In this document: in pieces, positions 6,104-13,033 of the stretch
Position numbering within the stretch: the first letter of the stretch is position 1
Layout of the letters: every line of letters starts with the position of its first letter
DNA from: Candidatus Baldrarchaeota archaeon
GTDB lineage: Archaea; Asgardarchaeota; Baldrarchaeia; Baldrarchaeales; DXJG01
DNA length: 39,142 nucleotides
NCBI GenBank assembly: GCA_016840485.1
Contig: JAEOSG010000005.1
Coordinates: 1 to 39,142, forward strand
Direction: 5' to 3'
The notes under the pieces: generated by a model
Database searches by the model: none
What the model was told of the DNA's origin: nothing
What the model saw: the letters and a program-made list of their open reading frames with translations, nothing else
Made by a program: the position numbers and the translations under genes

Positions 6104-6865
6104 ATGCTCAAAATAGAAAACATTACCGTTGAGTATCACGGCAAAGAAATATTAAAGAATATAGACTTGGAAATAGAAAAAGGAACTATACATGCCCTCC
6201 TTGGGCCAAACGCCGCAGGTAAATCTACATTAGCAAAGGTTATAATGGGTTTTCCACAGTATAAGGTTACTTCTGGAACCATATATTTTGAAGGCAAGGA
6301 CATAACACATTATTCAATGGAAGAAAGAGTTAAACTTGGAATCACAATGATTTTTCAAGACCCACCTGCTATTAAAAATGTAAAATTAAAAGAACTGCTC
6401 GGAAAAATTTCTAAAGTTCCAATAGATGAACTGTTAGGAAAGATAAAGCTAAACAATATGGTAGAGGAACTCCTTGATCGAGAAGTTAATGTAAACTTCT
6501 CTGGAGGGGAAAAGAAACTATCTGAACTTCTACAAGTCTTATCGCTAAAACCAAAATTTTTAATTTTAGACGAATTAGATTCTGGGCTTGATCTAGTGAA
6601 TTTGAGAAAGATAACTTTTCTAATAAAGGACGAATTCCTCAATAGTGAAACCTCTCTTCTAATAATAACCCACCGTGGAGAAATTTTACATTTCCTTGAG
6701 CCTCATGTCGCTCATGTTATGGTAGATGGGGAAATTGTTTGTTCAGGTGATTGGAGATATGTCTGGAAGGTTATCACAACCGAAGGATATGAAAAATGCC
6801 GCGAATGTAGAGGAAGAATACCACTATTTGCAAAGAGATCATCAAGTGAACATTCTTCCAGTTGA
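6104..6865 (+). CDS. sufC: SufC, Fe-S cluster assembly ATPase
   Basis: Cytoplasmic ABC-type ATPase that energises the SufBC Fe-S scaffold. Motifs: Walker A GPNAAGKST (residue ~34), the SufC-specific QDPPAIKNVKLKELL, signature NFSGGEKKLSELLQ, Walker B FLILDELDSGLDLV and the histidine loop LLIITHRGEIL. DELDSGLD is the SufC-type Walker B. RBS AGAGG lies 7 nt before the ATG, and a TATA-like GTTTAAATT is at about 6009. The end (GYEKCRECRG) resembles other archaeal SufC proteins, but its final serine-rich residues overlap the start of sufB by 77 nt, longer than usual. Confidence 0.93.
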   Translation: MLKIENITVEYHGKEILKNIDLEIEKGTIHALLGPNAAGKSTLAKVIMGFPQYKVTSGTIYFEGKDITHYSMEERVKLGITMIFQDPPAIKNVKLKELLGKISKVPIDELLGKIKLNNMVEELLDREVNVNFSGGEKKLSELLQVLSLKPKFLILDELDSGLDLVNLRKITFLIKDEFLNSETSLLIITHRGEILHFLEPHVAHVMVDGEIVCSGDWRYVWKVITTEGYEKCRECRGRIPLFAKRSSSEHSSS

Positions 6866-7703
6866 AAATGTTGAACTTCTTAAAATAACAGACGCAATCA
6901 AAAAATATCCTTGGATAAAAGAACATATTCCTAAACCCGTTGAAGGCTACTTCATGTGGATCAAAGAAACTATAAAAATTCCTCTTTCCGGATGTTTTCT
7001 AATTGCAAGCCCAAGGACAAAGCAGAAACCAGCAAATCTCCTAATTCTCGAGGAAAATGTTAAAGCAACCCTGAGAACAATTTGCGCCGCAGAACTCCCG
7101 GACTTAGCAGGTAGCCATACCGGTTTCACTAAAATCATATTGAAAGAGAAATCGCAATTAAACATCGAACATGTACACAGATGGGGTAAAAGAGACACCG
7201 TAATAACTAGTTTAAATGTTCTGCTTCACCCCCATGCACGTCTTAAATACGATTATCGAAGCCTAGAAGCTCCCAAAAAACTAAGTATAATCACAAAAGC
7301 GGAACTACTTGATAACGCGTCATTTAGCCTTACCACGGCAGTAGACGCAGAAAACAGCAATATTACCACAAAAGAAGTTTTCAGCCTAACTGGAGCTAAA
7401 AGTCGCGGTGAAATAAAATTAAGATTTGTGGGAAGAGACAATAGCTATGTGAAAGCTTTAAGTAAAATTTTAGGGTTTGGAAACGAAGCAGTTGGACATC
7501 TAGATTGTCAAGGCCTTCTTTTAAGTGATTCTTCCTACATAGATTTGATACCAGAACTCGTTAGCAGAAACAAAACCGTAATGTTAACACATGAAGCATC
7601 AATAGGAAGAATCTCCGAAGAAGTACTACTATATCTTAGAAGCAGAGGACTAACAGAAGAGGAAGCCATAAACCTAATAGTAACAGGATTCCTAACAAAA
7701 TAA
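6789..7703 (+). CDS. sufB: SufB/SufD-family Fe-S scaffold protein
   Basis: Partner of SufC. Archaea often use a minimal SufBC pair in which SufB carries the nascent cluster. Recognisable blocks: EEEYHYLQRDHQVN near the N-terminus, then the beta-helix core with GSHTGFTKIILKEKSQLNIEHVHRW, the block GHLDCQGLLLSDSSYIDLIP, and the family end LTHEASIGRISEEVLLYLRS. Only about 304 aa follow ATG 6789, so the extra N-terminal ~75 residues of many SufB proteins (including the KPAxYGxDID segment) are missing, making it SufD-like in size. A start at GTG/ATG 6726 is possible but would overlap sufC by 140 nt. No SufS or SufU gene is nearby. Confidence 0.88.
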   Translation: MKNAANVEEEYHYLQRDHQVNILPVENVELLKITDAIKKYPWIKEHIPKPVEGYFMWIKETIKIPLSGCFLIASPRTKQKPANLLILEENVKATLRTICAAELPDLAGSHTGFTKIILKEKSQLNIEHVHRWGKRDTVITSLNVLLHPHARLKYDYRSLEAPKKLSIITKAELLDNASFSLTTAVDAENSNITTKEVFSLTGAKSRGEIKLRFVGRDNSYVKALSKILGFGNEAVGHLDCQGLLLSDSSYIDLIPELVSRNKTVMLTHEASIGRISEEVLLYLRSRGLTEEEAINLIVTGFLTK

Positions 7704-7910: not shown

Positions 7911-8657
7911 ATGTCCAGTATTTCTGACCTTTTATTATCTCTAAAAAAGAACAAAGCAACCCTAACAGAGTTGAAAGAAGCCTTTAACCGCAACATAGAC
8001 ATAATTAGCCGAGACATAGATTCATTAACCGAGCGATTAGAACGCTTAAAAAATAAACTCATCGAAAAGCAAAATATCGAAGAAGAAAAAGAAAAAATAG
8101 TATCAGAATTGGAAGCTGCTATTTCCAGCCTAGAAAGCGAAAAATCACAAGCCGAAAACAAACTTTCAGAACTTAAAGAAAATGAGATCCAGTTTAACCA
8201 ACAGTTAAAGGAGTTAGAGACAGAACTTACCAAGATCAGGGAAGAAATAAGCAGCGTAAAGGAAAATATTTTCAGCCTTGAGCAAGCCTGCAAGGAAAAA
8301 GAAGACGAGATAGCTAAATTGGAAAAAGAGATTGAGAACATAAAAATGGAGCATGATAAAGCAATAGCTTCTCTGAGATCATCTTATGAAGAGGAATCAA
8401 ATAAGTTAAATGAGTTAAAAGCAAAATATTCCGCCTTAAAATTTCTAATAAGGAAAGACATCTTGGATATACCAGAATTAAAGGTAATTAGGGTAATAAA
8501 AGATCAGAAAACCACATCAATCAGTTTCATTGAGAAAAGTACATCGCTAAAAACCTCTTTCATTCAACATGTCATCAGAGGCTTAGTTGAAAGAGGAGTT
8601 ATAGAGTTTAATCCAAATACAGGTGAAATAAAAACTTTAAAAGAAATTAAAATCTAG
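7911..8657 (+). CDS. Coiled-coil protein with C-terminal winged-helix-like domain (paralogue 1)
   Basis: Not a family I can name. Residues ~15-165 are an almost unbroken heptad-like run rich in E, K, L and S, predicting a long coiled coil. Residues ~175-248 are globular: LKFLIRKDILDIPELKVIRVI, a helix-turn-helix-like SLKTSFIQHVIRGLVERGVI, and a two-strand wing FNPNTGEIKTL. The downstream gene has the same architecture and alignable ends, so the two are tandem duplicates. The combination suggests a DNA-associated or scaffold protein, perhaps a heterodimer with its neighbour; this is inference. A weak GGAG precedes the ATG. Confidence 0.8.
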   Translation: MSSISDLLLSLKKNKATLTELKEAFNRNIDIISRDIDSLTERLERLKNKLIEKQNIEEEKEKIVSELEAAISSLESEKSQAENKLSELKENEIQFNQQLKELETELTKIREEISSVKENIFSLEQACKEKEDEIAKLEKEIENIKMEHDKAIASLRSSYEEESNKLNELKAKYSALKFLIRKDILDIPELKVIRVIKDQKTTSISFIEKSTSLKTSFIQHVIRGLVERGVIEFNPNTGEIKTLKEIKI

Positions 8658-8681
8658 TGTAAAAGATGAGGGGGAGCTATT

Positions 8682-9416
8682 ATGTCTGAAATATCTAATA
8701 TTAAAGATTTACTGAGAAAAACTGAAGAAGATACAAAAGAATTAAAAGGATTTCTTAATTCTAAGCTTGAATCTATAATTGAAGAAGTAAATTCATCAAG
8801 TAAAGCATTAGAAAGCCTTGAAAAAGACCTTGAAAACACCGAAAGTAGAATCAAAAAATATGACACGCAAATAACTGAATTGAAAGAAAAGAAGACTAAC
8901 CTTGAACAAGCAGTTAAAAACCTCAAACTAAAAATCGAAGAAACAAATAATAAAATAGTAGAATTTAAAGACAAAATATCTGATCTTAAAGTTAAGCTAG
9001 AAAATGCTAGCAAAGAACTTATCCAGTTAAAAAATGAAAAAGAGGAAAAGCAAAAGAAGTTAGAAGAATTAAATCAAAAAGTAAAACAACTTAAAGAAGA
9101 AATTGTTCGCATTAAAAAAGCTAACGAAGAAGAATTTACAGAAAAAAGTGTAGGTCTCAACAAAATAAGAGAGGAACTAAACAAGTTAGCAAGCGAAAAC
9201 GCAGTTATCGATTTTATTTTAGCCGAGGGAAGTTACTCCACTCCAGAGGTAGAAATTCTTACAATACTTTTCAAAACAAGAGCGTCAACTGTAGAAGAAA
9301 TAAAAAGAGAAGTTAAAGCGCCTCCAGTAATGACCGTTAGAACCTTAAGAAAGCTAGCTGAAATGAATGTTTTAAGCTACAACGAAACAACAGGGCAAGT
9401 TAAACTCCTACTATAA
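8682..9416 (+). CDS. Coiled-coil protein with C-terminal winged-helix-like domain (paralogue 2)
   Basis: Tandem paralogue of the preceding gene, 24 nt downstream and with a strong RBS (GAGGGGGAG). The N-terminus MSEISNIKDLLRKTEEDTKE parallels MSSISDLLLSLKKNKATLTE. A coiled coil spans ~20-160. The C-terminal domain (~170-244) has TPEVEILTILFKTRASTVEE, a helix VMTVRTLRKLAEMNVLSY and a wing NETTGQVKLLL, matching the other copy position by position. Function is unknown. The pair is probably co-transcribed and co-translated, which favours a hetero-oligomer. Confidence 0.8.
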   Translation: MSEISNIKDLLRKTEEDTKELKGFLNSKLESIIEEVNSSSKALESLEKDLENTESRIKKYDTQITELKEKKTNLEQAVKNLKLKIEETNNKIVEFKDKISDLKVKLENASKELIQLKNEKEEKQKKLEELNQKVKQLKEEIVRIKKANEEEFTEKSVGLNKIREELNKLASENAVIDFILAEGSYSTPEVEILTILFKTRASTVEEIKREVKAPPVMTVRTLRKLAEMNVLSYNETTGQVKLLL

Positions 9417-9429
9417 GTTTTTATTTCTG

Positions 9430-11883
9430 CTAAAGTCCTAACTTGGTGTTCTTTGAACTCCTTTTTATTTCTGGGACGTATTTTTTCATTAGTAGTGACC
9501 ATGAGGTTACTGAAACTGAACTCATCGCCATGGCTATTCCTGCTAACGCTGGATATAGAAGTCCTGCTGCTGCAACTGGAATCAAGATAGTGTTGTAGGC
9601 GAATGCCCAAAAGAGGTTTTGCTTTACCTGTCTAATTGTTCTCTTACTAAGCTGAATAGCCGCAATGACATCTCTTAAATCATCTCTAATTAAAATAATG
9701 TCTCCAGCTTCAATTGCGATATCTGTTCCACTTCCTATAGCAAATCCAACATCAGCTTGAGTTAAGGCGGGAGCATCGTTTACACCGTCTCCAACCATGC
9801 CAACAATGTAACCTTCTTCCTGAAGCTTCTTCAATTCTTTAGCCTTATCTCTAGGCAAAACGTTAGCCAGTACCCTATCAATACCAAGTTGGGCAGCAAT
9901 CGCTCTAGCCGTCCTCTCATTATCACCAGTTATCATTCCAACTTTTATTCCCATTTTTCTAAGCTCTTCTAATGCTATTTTCGCCTCTCTTCTAGGGATA
10001 TCCATAATTCCTATTAAACCTATTATCTCATTGTTCACCGAAATCCCTACAACTGTTTTTCCCTGTTCCATTAGTTTGTCAGCTTCTTTTTCGGCACCGT
10101 TGAATTTAACTCCTTTTTCTTTTAACAATCTAATGCTTCCAACCAGTATTTCTAAGCCGTTATATACTGCTTTAACTCCTTTTCCAGGGATGGATATAAA
10201 GTCTTCTGGATCTTCGATTTTCAAGCCTTCTCTTATCGCTTTTTCAACAACTGCTTTAGCTAGGGGATGTTCTGAATTCTTTTCAGCTATTGCAGCCAAT
10301 CTAAGAGTTTCTTTTACTAAGTCACCATTCCCGTTAGCTAATACTTCAACTGGTTTAATAGCGATCACATCTGTAACTTCTGGGCTACCCTTGGTCAATG
10401 TTCCCGTTTTATCGAAAACAATGATATCTAGTTTCCCAGCTAACTCTAATGCTTCTCCACTTTTAATCAAAATTCCATATTCAGCTCCTTTGCCCATTCC
10501 AACCATTACAGCGGTTGGAGTAGCTAATCCTAAAGCACATGGACATGCAACAACCAAAACAGCAACCATATTCAATATAGCTTTGGCCACTCCAACGTGA
10601 AAGCCAAAGTACCACAACATGAAGGTTAAGATTGAAACCGATATAACTGTAAAAGTGAAATACCCAGCTACCTTATCAACTATTTTTTGAATCGGCGGCT
10701 TCATGCTTATAGCTTCTTCAACAAGCTTAACTACCTGAGCCAGAAACGTATCGCTTCCAACCTTTGTAGCTCTAATCTTTAAAACTCCTTCCCTGTTTAC
10801 CGTCCCACCTATAACTTCATCTCCAGGTTTCTTCTCAACTGGAATAGATTCCCCTGTAACCATTGACTCATCTACAGCAGAATGCCCCTCTATAACCACT
10901 CCATCCGTAGCTATCTTCTCCCCCGGTCTAACGATCAAAATATCTCCTACTTGTATCAATTCAGCTGGTATCTCCTCTTCAACACCATCTCTTAAAACTC
11001 TAGCACTCTTAGGACGTACTTCCAAAAGTTTCTTGATAACAGCGGACGTCTTACCCTTAGTTTTGGTTTCCAAATATTTTCCAAGCAGCACAAATGAAAT
11101 AACTATCGTTGAACTATCGTAGTAAATATTTCGCCACACTGGTGTAGGGAAAGTATACCATGCGCTTAAAAGAAACGCCGCCGTTGTACCAATTGAAACC
11201 AGTGTATCCATATTTGCTGTCTTCATTCTAGCTGCTCTAAAAGCCCCTTGATAAAATCTCCAACCAACACCAAACTGAACTATCGCCGTTAAAACAAATA
11301 TAATGTAACCTGCCAGAGGTGTCCCAGCCAATGGAAGAAAGCGAAACACGTCGGGATAAGCATAAAGAAGTATAGGAACAGACAAAATTAAGCCTAAAAT
11401 AGCTAAACGCTTCAACTTCTTAGCTTCAACTTCTTCAACAGATAATGCAAATTCTTCGTGAATAACATCTAACCCGTAATCGGTAATAATTTTCTTAATA
11501 TCGCTGAGAGAAATTAAAGCAGGATTATACTCTAAAAACACTTGACCATTCACATAATTAACAGAAACATTTTTTACACCCTCAACATTTCTAAGAGCAT
11601 CTTCTAGCTTATTAGCATCAATCTGATCCCTTAAACCACCCACTTGAATCGTAACTTTTTCATATACAACATAGTAACCAGTCTCCTTAATTGTTTCTTC
11701 GATTTCATTAAGATCAACCTTCTCCGGATCAAAAACTACGGTAGCCTTTTCTGAAGCAAAACTAACTTCAGCTTTTTCAACACCAAGTAAATTTTTCAAA
11801 TTTCTCTCTATTGTTAGAGCACAACCAGCACAATGCATACCACCTATTTTCAATGAAACTGTTCTTTTTCTGTTCTTAGACAT
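9430..11883 (-). CDS. copA: Copper-exporting P1B-type ATPase CopA
   Basis: Pumps Cu+ out of the cytoplasm using ATP. Order of domains: heavy-metal-binding domain 1 with GGMHCAGC (Cys18, Cys21); a second ferredoxin-like domain (~74-140) that has lost its CxxC and reads GGLRDQID; two extra helices; the TGES actuator; the membrane metal site CPC at about residue 446; DKTGTLT phosphorylation site (~490); SEHPLAKA nucleotide site; [10 protein letters not shown]; and the P1B-1 motif MSSVSV in the last helices. 817 aa is normal. The start is fixed by AAGGAGGTG 6 nt upstream. Last gene of a minus-strand copper operon after the 51-aa peptide and the YHS protein. Confidence 0.97.
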
Positions 11884-11922
11884 CTTGACACCTCCTTAAA
11901 AGGAGAAAATAGTTTTTAAATT

Positions 11923-12108
11923 CTAGACACTGCAGCCGGGGCAACCATGACAGCCATATCCGAAAGCTTTTTCATATTTCTCTGTTTCCTTGTCGAAGAC
12001 CATTTTACAATGTTCACTACAGAAATAGTACACTTTACCCATGTATTCCGATCTATATTTCGCTGTCTTCTCATCTACTTCCATTCCGCAGATTGGGTCT
12101 TTAGCCAA
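11923..12108 (-). CDS. YHS-domain small metal-binding protein
   Basis: Small YHS domain, a TRASH-like zinc/copper-binding fold: KDPICGMEVD, then GKVYYFCSEHCKMVF. The tail GCHGCPGCSV adds three closely spaced cysteines that could bind Cu+. I place the start at TTG 12108, giving the classic MAKDPICGME start with AGGGGTGA as RBS; a GTG at 12117 would add three residues. It sits 39 nt upstream of copA in the same orientation. YHS proteins beside copper ATPases are thought to hand over or buffer copper; that role is inferred from context. Confidence 0.85.
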   Translation of the reverse strand: MAKDPICGMEVDEKTAKYRSEYMGKVYYFCSEHCKMVFDKETEKYEKAFGYGCHGCPGCSV

Positions 12109-12125
12109 AACAATCACCCCTGTCG

Positions 12126-12149
12126 CTTTTTCACATAATTATGAAAAAG
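12126..12149. promoter_or_regulatory. Perfect 8-bp inverted repeat upstream of the YHS-copA genes
   Basis: CTTTTTCA (12126-12133) and TGAAAAAG (12142-12149) are exact inverted copies around an 8-bp AT spacer. It lies between the end of the 51-aa peptide gene and the YHS gene, just upstream of the latter on the minus strand. It could be a second operator for the copper regulator or a weak intercistronic hairpin. There is no T-tract that would favour a terminator. Confidence 0.4.
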
Positions 12150-12158
12150 GTTTAATTG

Positions 12159-12314
12159 TTACAATCGACAGCACATTGACCGAGTTTTACCAAATTTCTT
12201 ATTAACCATAAACCCAAGTATAAATCCTGCCAGTGGAGCTATGAAAGTCCAAGGCCGCCCAAATATGTAGCCAATCATAAGACCGAGGAACAAACCTAAA
12301 CAGCAAAGCAACAT
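12159..12314 (-). CDS. Small two-helix membrane peptide (51 aa) in the copper operon
   Basis: A short reading frame starting MLLCCLGLFLGLMIGYIFG and ending SMCCRL. It has two hydrophobic segments (residues ~1-18 and ~24-36) joined by a short GRPWTF turn, with CC pairs at both ends (residues 4-5 and 48-49). GAGGT lies 4 nt upstream of the ATG, and a TATA box is about 40 nt upstream. It precedes the YHS and copA genes in the same orientation. The paired cysteines and position suggest a role in copper handling or as a CopA accessory peptide; no homologue is recognised. Confidence 0.65.
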   Translation of the reverse strand: MLLCCLGLFLGLMIGYIFGRPWTFIAPLAGFILGFMVNKKFGKTRSMCCRL

Positions 12315-12349
12315 AATAACCTCAATACATAATGTCAAAAGAGATAAAA

Positions 12350-12380
12350 AATATATTTGTTATTCTTTCCAAAATGGAAA
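12350..12380 (-). promoter_or_regulatory. Promoter and candidate operator of the copper operon
   Basis: On the minus strand the AT-rich AAATATATTT (about 12350-12358) is a good archaeal TATA box for a start near 12328, giving a ~14-nt leader before the 51-aa peptide. Immediately upstream, TTTCCATTTTGGAAA (12366-12380) is a perfect inverted repeat with 6-bp arms. The half-site TTTGGAAA also occurs near 12414-12421. The position next to the BRE/TATA element and beside the Lrp-TRASH gene suggests the copper regulator binds here; this is inferred. Confidence 0.55.
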
Positions 12381-12434
12381 TCTAAATAAAATAATAAAAT
12401 CAATTACTACTTTGGAAAATAAATGTTAAAACAG

Positions 12435-13033
12435 TTAAGATTGCTTCTTTCTCCGCTCTAAAATACGCATTCTTTCTTTAAACTTTCTTAGACATATTGG
12501 ACAACAGAAATAAAACCTTCTATTATATAAAGTGTATGTGTAAGGCTCATCTGAGATTTCTTTACCGCAGTAGTTACATTTCAGCTTTAAACTCAATCTT
12601 GGCGTGTATTCTGCTTTTTTTACAACTTTCAGAACAATATTTGTTTCGAAGGGAATCTTTAGATCAACAAACTTCTCTAACATGTCTTTAAGCATCTTTA
12701 TATTAGGAATCACCGCCTTACAAATAACATTTCTCTCCCCGCTTGTCACATATATCTCAGAGATTACGTCCATCTTTCCTAATTCTTCTACAAGCTGTTC
12801 AGTATCTGGTGCCTTAAATCCAACCAACACTTGGACTCCTTGTTCAAAAAGCTTATCGTCCAAAATAACAGTAAACTTTTTAATCACACCGCTTTCAATT
12901 AATTTCTTTATTCTTTGCCTCACAGTAACTCTACTTAAACCCAGTTCACGGGAAATATCGATATAGAGGCACGAGCATTCTCTTGAAGAATTCTCAAAAT
13001 CTCATAATCAGCTTCACTTAAATTAACAGCCAT
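12435..13033 (-). CDS. Lrp/AsnC-type copper regulator with C-terminal TRASH domain, frameshifted near its start
   Basis: Resembles the CopR/CopT-type copper regulators of Sulfolobus. An Lrp helix-turn-helix is followed by the Lrp effector fold and a metal-binding TRASH domain (CNYCGKEI, then FYFCCPICLRKF). The undisturbed frame begins only at MRQRIKKLIESGVIKKF. Upstream, ATG 13033 starts MAVNLSEADYEILRILQENA, and the frame that continues reads YIDISRELGLSRVTV. The two join if one base is added near 12966-12967. Without it the protein lacks its first HTH helices. It lies directly upstream of the copper operon it probably controls. Confidence 0.85.

Follow-up and report, generated by a model that had tools for sequence, protein, structure and literature searches.

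An Asgard gene pair predicted to form an in-register heterodimeric coiled-coil rod with paired winged-helix heads

Ska1, a kinetochore protein of ~255 aa that belongs to the Ska1-Ska2-Ska3 complex, has an N-terminal coil and a C-terminal winged helix (wH). Sso10a and Lrs14, small chromatin proteins of Sulfolobales, join a DNA-binding wH to helical dimerisation. Hop2-Mnd1, which functions in eukaryotic meiotic recombination, is built of two subunits of similar size with N-terminal wH domains. It is described as a leucine-zipper rod, kinked at two junctions, one end of which bears a pair of adjoining winged helices (PMC4402518). Coil-plus-wH proteins are also encoded in archaeal ESCRT loci (arCOG09748 and arCOG11741); arCOG09748 is reported to have a C-terminal wH and an extra globular central domain (PMC10936438).

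Here we describe two adjacent genes, A and B, whose products would resemble Hop2-Mnd1 most closely in plan. From their sequences, A and B are predicted to coil around each other in parallel as a heterodimer, which would bring both wH to the same end. However, the helix of A/B is uninterrupted, whereas the Hop2-Mnd1 rod is described as kinked (PMC4402518), and the wH is C-terminal in A, B and their orthologues. Hop2-Mnd1 is the nearest known plan to such a two-headed hetero-rod, not a sequence relative; the A/B locus (G000:C284) is not among the matches listed for the Hop2 model PF07106, down to E ~0.5. Like Sso10a and Lrs14, A/B combine an archaeal wH with helical dimerisation, but as a ~250-aa hetero-pair with a predicted 25-heptad rod. 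Like arCOG09748 and arCOG11741, A and B are archaeal proteins that each combine a coil with a wH, but they lack the central globular domain of arCOG09748, and their clustered neighbours give no sign of the ESCRT-locus setting of both (PMC10936438). The MarR and TrmB families have the fold of the C-terminal domain of A/B, which in contrast have no effector domain, a long coil and, in B, an acidic wH. No description of the pair was found in the open-access literature.

The window, i.e. the whole stretch of 39,142 nucleotides analysed from a Candidatus Baldrarchaeota archaeon, carries A and B on the same strand (+), in the same frame and 24 nt apart. The tandem of coiled-coil and wH proteins that an earlier note had recognised here is real and better founded than the note put it: both ORFs are present, and profiles and AlphaFold support coil and wH. 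The features are as follows.

7911..8657, + strand: gene A, coiled coil plus C-terminal winged helix, 248 aa (ORF; orthologues in the same order in 73 extracted pairs)
7914..8453, + strand: residues 2-181 of A, single uninterrupted helix, ~25 heptads (AlphaFold; constant heptad phase)
8469..8654, + strand: residues 187-248 of A, winged helix, mildly basic (wH profile search, wH charge, AlphaFold)
8658..8681, + strand: spacer before B, 24 nt, purine-rich (GAGGGGGAG), ribosome-binding-like (sequence reading)
8682..9416, + strand: gene B, coiled coil plus C-terminal winged helix, 244 aa (ORF; 73 extracted pairs)
8682..9227, + strand: residues 1-182 of B, coiled coil with the heptad register of A (periodicity, pairing analysis)
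9240..9413, + strand: residues 187-244 of B, winged helix, near-neutral here and acidic in most lineages (profile, charge, AlphaFold, Foldseek)

A and B are co-linear over their whole length. Each has its wH proline at residue 188, and in each the shared ending N(P/E)xTGxxKxL, already noticed earlier, begins at residue 234. This motif is the wing hairpin and is kept only in part among relatives, across which the junction of coil and wH, hydrophobic LL and then PE, is the better-conserved signature.

Two other gene groups of the window flank the pair. Directly upstream (6104-7703, +) lies a minimal SUF-like set of two genes, for a SufC ATPase (NCBIfam TIGR01978, over cut-off) and, after it, a SufB/D-like protein. 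With the listed SufB/D-like start at 6726, 140 nt would be shared with sufC; translation therefore probably begins further downstream. At 9430-12923 (-) a copper-type P-ATPase, recognisable in the sequence by its CPC and DKTGT motifs, is accompanied by a short cysteine-rich YHS/TRASH-like ORF (11923-12117) and by an Lrp-like regulator with a cysteine-rich tail at its end.

Profiles built from 19 As and 19 Bs were run across 228 Asgard genomes, both genes being required at E<=1e-20. Co-occurrence of the two copies, a check that the earlier note had named beforehand, is borne out: 107 of the 228 genomes and 13 of the 29 families have both, including Baldrarchaeia (f1), Lokiarchaeia (f3), f10, f15, f17, f22 and f24, and also a closed genome (G006) taken as Odinarchaeum. 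Where a few genomes show one strong gene, the partner is mostly at a contig edge or lower-scoring. The pair is missing from the whole large family f4 (Thorarchaeia by inference) and from many other of the 228 genomes searched. No A/B pair occurs in the ~290 sampled genomes of other archaeal phyla within a 392-genome archaeal search; matches at E<=1e-9 appear in eight of them only, as SMC-sized or otherwise unlike frames. The closest named relative of B, 72% identical, is from a Candidatus Baldrarchaeota MAG, and nearly all other named matches are from Lokiarchaeota.

Gene order is invariant. A precedes B on one strand in 73/73 extracted pairs, with a gap of -11 to +28 nt bar one late-called start; in Lokiarchaeia the genes mostly overlap by 1 or 4 nt. 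The surroundings of the 73 pairs are variable: among the clustered genes within five positions, no context is common to different families and no single gene family recurs beside A/B across lineages. Recurrence of neighbours, which were clustered and not each identified, is essentially within families.

Some genomes have more than one pair. An f10 genome (G019) carries a head-to-tail double pair A1-B1-A2-B2 (L068:7563-10688, -), and another genome (G008) has two unlinked pairs (L064, L065). A Lokiarchaeon (G180) has a second, degenerate pair (L123:4820-7036, +), in which the coil of B is shorter by ~45 residues and a long, largely acidic extension follows at the C-terminus, bringing B to 488 aa, and the A partner retains 188.

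The view that A and B are a duplicated pair is confirmed by reciprocal profile matches, at 7.7e-26 from the A profile to B and at 5.8e-27 from the B profile to A; a single-sequence comparison gives 20% identity and E = 1.4e-7. Both belong to a wider set of Asgard proteins with a coil and a C-terminal wH. This set includes class C, single-gene relatives of ~225-246 aa with the junction G(K/Q)PHxRI and a coil length less fixed than in A/B, found in f4 (probably Thorarchaeia), Lokiarchaeia, f6 and Baldrarchaeia (L116-L121, L185-L190, L192, L193; L063:7899-8606, +). In a maximum-likelihood tree of the junction-plus-wH region, built on 79 columns only, A (86/85), B (86/90) and C (100/99) each form one group. 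The tree is consistent with a single old duplication followed by joint inheritance of A and B, and the duplication probably preceded the split of the main Asgard lineages.

Long forms of 437-648 aa, related to A/B by profile, have an extra N-terminal region (L181:1640-2953, -, on contig C142 of the window genome; L179:1783-3729, +; L180:1051-2820, +; L182, L183). Contig C154 of the window genome also encodes a diverged 226-aa coil-plus-wH protein matched by A and B alike (L061:3546-4226, +). Because class C and the long forms exist besides A/B, a coil with a C-terminal wH is a recurrent Asgard design, and A/B is its heterodimeric branch.

In the AlphaFold model of A (mean pLDDT 90.5), residues 2-181 make up one helix, and H-E-H-H-E-E comes after it; hmmscan matches A and B mainly to coiled-coil families. 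The distance between Met1 and the wH anchor is almost always 187-190 residues in A and mostly 188-190 in B, the exceptions being B of f15 and f21, ~6-9 residues below the norm. Thus, the length is near-fixed although identity between families is mostly 15-30%. The hydrophobic periodicity of 3.5 residues keeps a near-constant phase across 188 residues in both proteins, and the two coils are in one register when anchored at the wH. We infer a rod of ~25 heptads without stutter, which would be roughly 26 nm long.

When two strands coil in parallel, each g residue lies opposite the e' found five residues on in the partner. The pairing was scored by a simple charge count, opposite minus like charges over the 46 g-e' positions of each dimer, in 18 cognate pairs whose coils have <40% identity with one another. 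In register, A:B of cognate partners reaches a mean score of +6.06, compared with 0.12 +- 0.74 when charges are shuffled within e and within g (z = 8.0, 0/5000 as high). The homodimers score -0.78 (A:A) and -0.78 (B:B), and A combined with a B from a different lineage -0.35 (0/3000 permutations as high as cognate). Moving A:B out of register by whole heptads, between -70 and +70 residues, gives scores <= 1.44. The antiparallel arrangement is rejected, its best offset scoring 2.11.

A:B exceeds both homodimers in 13 of the 18 pairs and their mean in 16 (Wilcoxon p = 4e-4); in the other five A:A or B:B equals or exceeds A:B, and one Loki representative has a negative A:B score. Common descent of A and B is rejected as the cause of the A:B score, because A:A and B:B would rise too. 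We take these scores as direct evidence, at the level of sequence, for co-evolution of A and B as a parallel, in-register heterodimer, and consider the heterodimeric rod itself very probable. Together with co-occurrence and adjacency across the Asgard phylum, the cognate charges favour the obligate heteromer that had been proposed for the pair. A model of A and B as one read-through chain would be forced, since a linker of ~8 residues is too short for a 26-nm parallel rod. For class C homodimers a charge test gives a weak signal (p = 0.01, 6 sequences), and no conclusion is drawn from it.

Among the Pfam and NCBIfam matches listed for A and B, none is over the curated cut-off. A reaches 22.3 bits against MarR (cut-off 24.6), and B has a sub-threshold match to HTH_27 only. 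The supposition that the pair is of unknown family is supported: no profile match points to a family of known function, the best being generic MarR/TrmB winged helices. A wH-only profile of A, B and C sequences finds in the PDB the MarR-type 3nrv (E = 2.6e-8) and 7kua (8e-7), and an Lrs14-like protein at 1.2e-5. The C-terminal piece of B is modelled by AlphaFold as a winged helix (83.6), and Foldseek aligns this model with MarR, IclR, Fur and AspA winged helices of the PDB at probability ~1.0, with no E-value <0.001. The winged-helix fold of A and B is secure, their nearer kinship is not. Searches dominated by the coil were set aside as noise: the full A profile finds myosin, tropomyosin and SMC coils in the PDB, and PHROGs returns mostly coil matches, e.g. 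tape-measure proteins.

The heads differ in charge. In most families the wH of A has a mildly basic net charge, about +0.5 to +4, and that of B is acidic in most (about -1 to -6), with exceptions near zero in Baldrarchaeia and f24 and at +1 in a single f16 genome; A is more positive than B in every family group. As a control, TrmB-type wH domains average +3.5 over 17 segments from seven of these genomes, at least one of them in a wrong frame. Helix 3 of B in Lokiarchaeia (PPIMAVRTIKQL) is almost invariant and hydrophobic, presumably at the position where MarR contacts DNA. The B head, being acidic and hydrophobic in helix 3, therefore looks like a protein-binding wH, and the A head could still touch DNA.

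These data bear on the possibility that A/B is a nucleoid-organising or transcription factor, whose A:B rod bridges or regulates DNA via one or both wH. Such a function would suit a fold closest to the DNA-binding MarR, Lrs14 and TrmB families, the basic tendency of A and the existence of archaeal wH chromatin proteins such as Sso10a and Lrs14; the acidity of B in nearly all lineages against the TrmB-type average, its hydrophobic helix 3 in Lokiarchaeia and the missing effector domain make it rather unlikely. The DNA-binding ends of the earlier note are accordingly unsupported for B, acidic in nearly every lineage; the mildly basic A may still bind DNA. With a parallel rod both heads would lie at the same end.

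We suggest that A and B are obligate partners within a single complex, in which helices of ~180 residues would zip in parallel and exactly in register into a ~25-heptad heterodimeric rod of ~26 nm. The parallel geometry would place the basic-leaning wH of A beside the acidic wH of B, forming a composite two-part head at one end. This head may dock on one partner, for which a protein is the likelier candidate although the A wH might touch DNA, and the N-terminal end of the rod may engage another partner. The rod would then act as a spacer or tether of fixed length. Paralogy, co-occurrence, gene order, the helix-plus-wH fold, the fixed length and parallel in-register hetero-pairing are supported by the sequence analyses. 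The tether role is conjectural, the gene neighbourhood, not conserved between families, giving it no backing. The whole statement, with the heterodimeric rod, the tether role and a mainly protein-binding head, appears moderately probable.

A membrane-trafficking or ESCRT-linked adaptor, with the rod as a stalk and wH heads that bind ESCRT-like partners, is quite improbable. It would agree with the use of wH domains as protein-binding modules in ESCRT-II, with the near-universal presence of ESCRT-III in Asgard and with the coil-plus-wH proteins reported from ESCRT loci of other archaea (PMC10936438). Against it, no recurrent partner gene is found among the clustered neighbours of A/B, the main text of the asCOG-based ESCRT survey does not list A/B, and ESCRT-III is equally present in genomes with and without the pair. 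Because ESCRT-III is near-universal, its correlation with A/B is uninformative. Snf7 is not among the 25 best Pfam matches of A or of B, which speaks against ESCRT-III/CdvB membership; the window genome has its best Snf7 match on a different contig (G000:C48).

A cytoskeletal coupler of the Ska1 or Ndc80 type, whose heads bind a polymer that the rod links to cargo, is very improbable. Ska1 has the coil-then-wH order and a size similar to A/B, and a rod of fixed length would suit a load-bearing spacer. However, the Pfam search reveals no sequence relation to Ska1 beyond coil noise (SKA1 0.014, in the coil only), and the polymer would have to be other than tubulin, since tubulin is rare in Asgard.

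The SMC/kleisin-type or Kite-replacing chromosome device that the earlier note had considered is hardly credible: SMC models match A/B at 1e-9 to 1e-10 in the coil only and an MksE-type wH appears weakly in the wH profile search, but A/B have no ATPase head, hinge, kleisin domain or tandem wH, each chain having just one wH, and most A/B genomes encode ScpB at another place, so that it coexists with the pair in Loki-, Odin- and Baldrarchaeia. Replacement of ScpB by A/B is ruled out by this coexistence. Most Asgard families have ScpB (PF04079), but it gives no match among the f17 genomes listed, most of which carry A/B.

The heterodimeric rod with its composite head is the reading we retain. It concerns a pair that is kept in about half of the sampled Asgard phylum, encoded as a unit and fixed in rod length over very deep divergence. 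Tentatively, A/B may be an ancestral, previously undescribed component of Asgard cell architecture: a ~26 nm obligate heterodimeric rod with a mostly non-DNA-binding paired wH as a protein-docking head, belonging to an Asgard-specific coil-plus-C-terminal-wH expansion (A, B, C and the long forms). A heterodimeric tether of eukaryotes might even descend from it. We regard this broader proposal as possible rather than probable.

Sequence here yields a precise and falsifiable prediction, a parallel, in-register heterodimer, and the heptad e and g residues name mutations predicted to break A:B pairing. With two small genes, A/B can be expressed and tested in E. coli. Finding a partner of the wH head would give this new structural complex its place in the Asgard cell.
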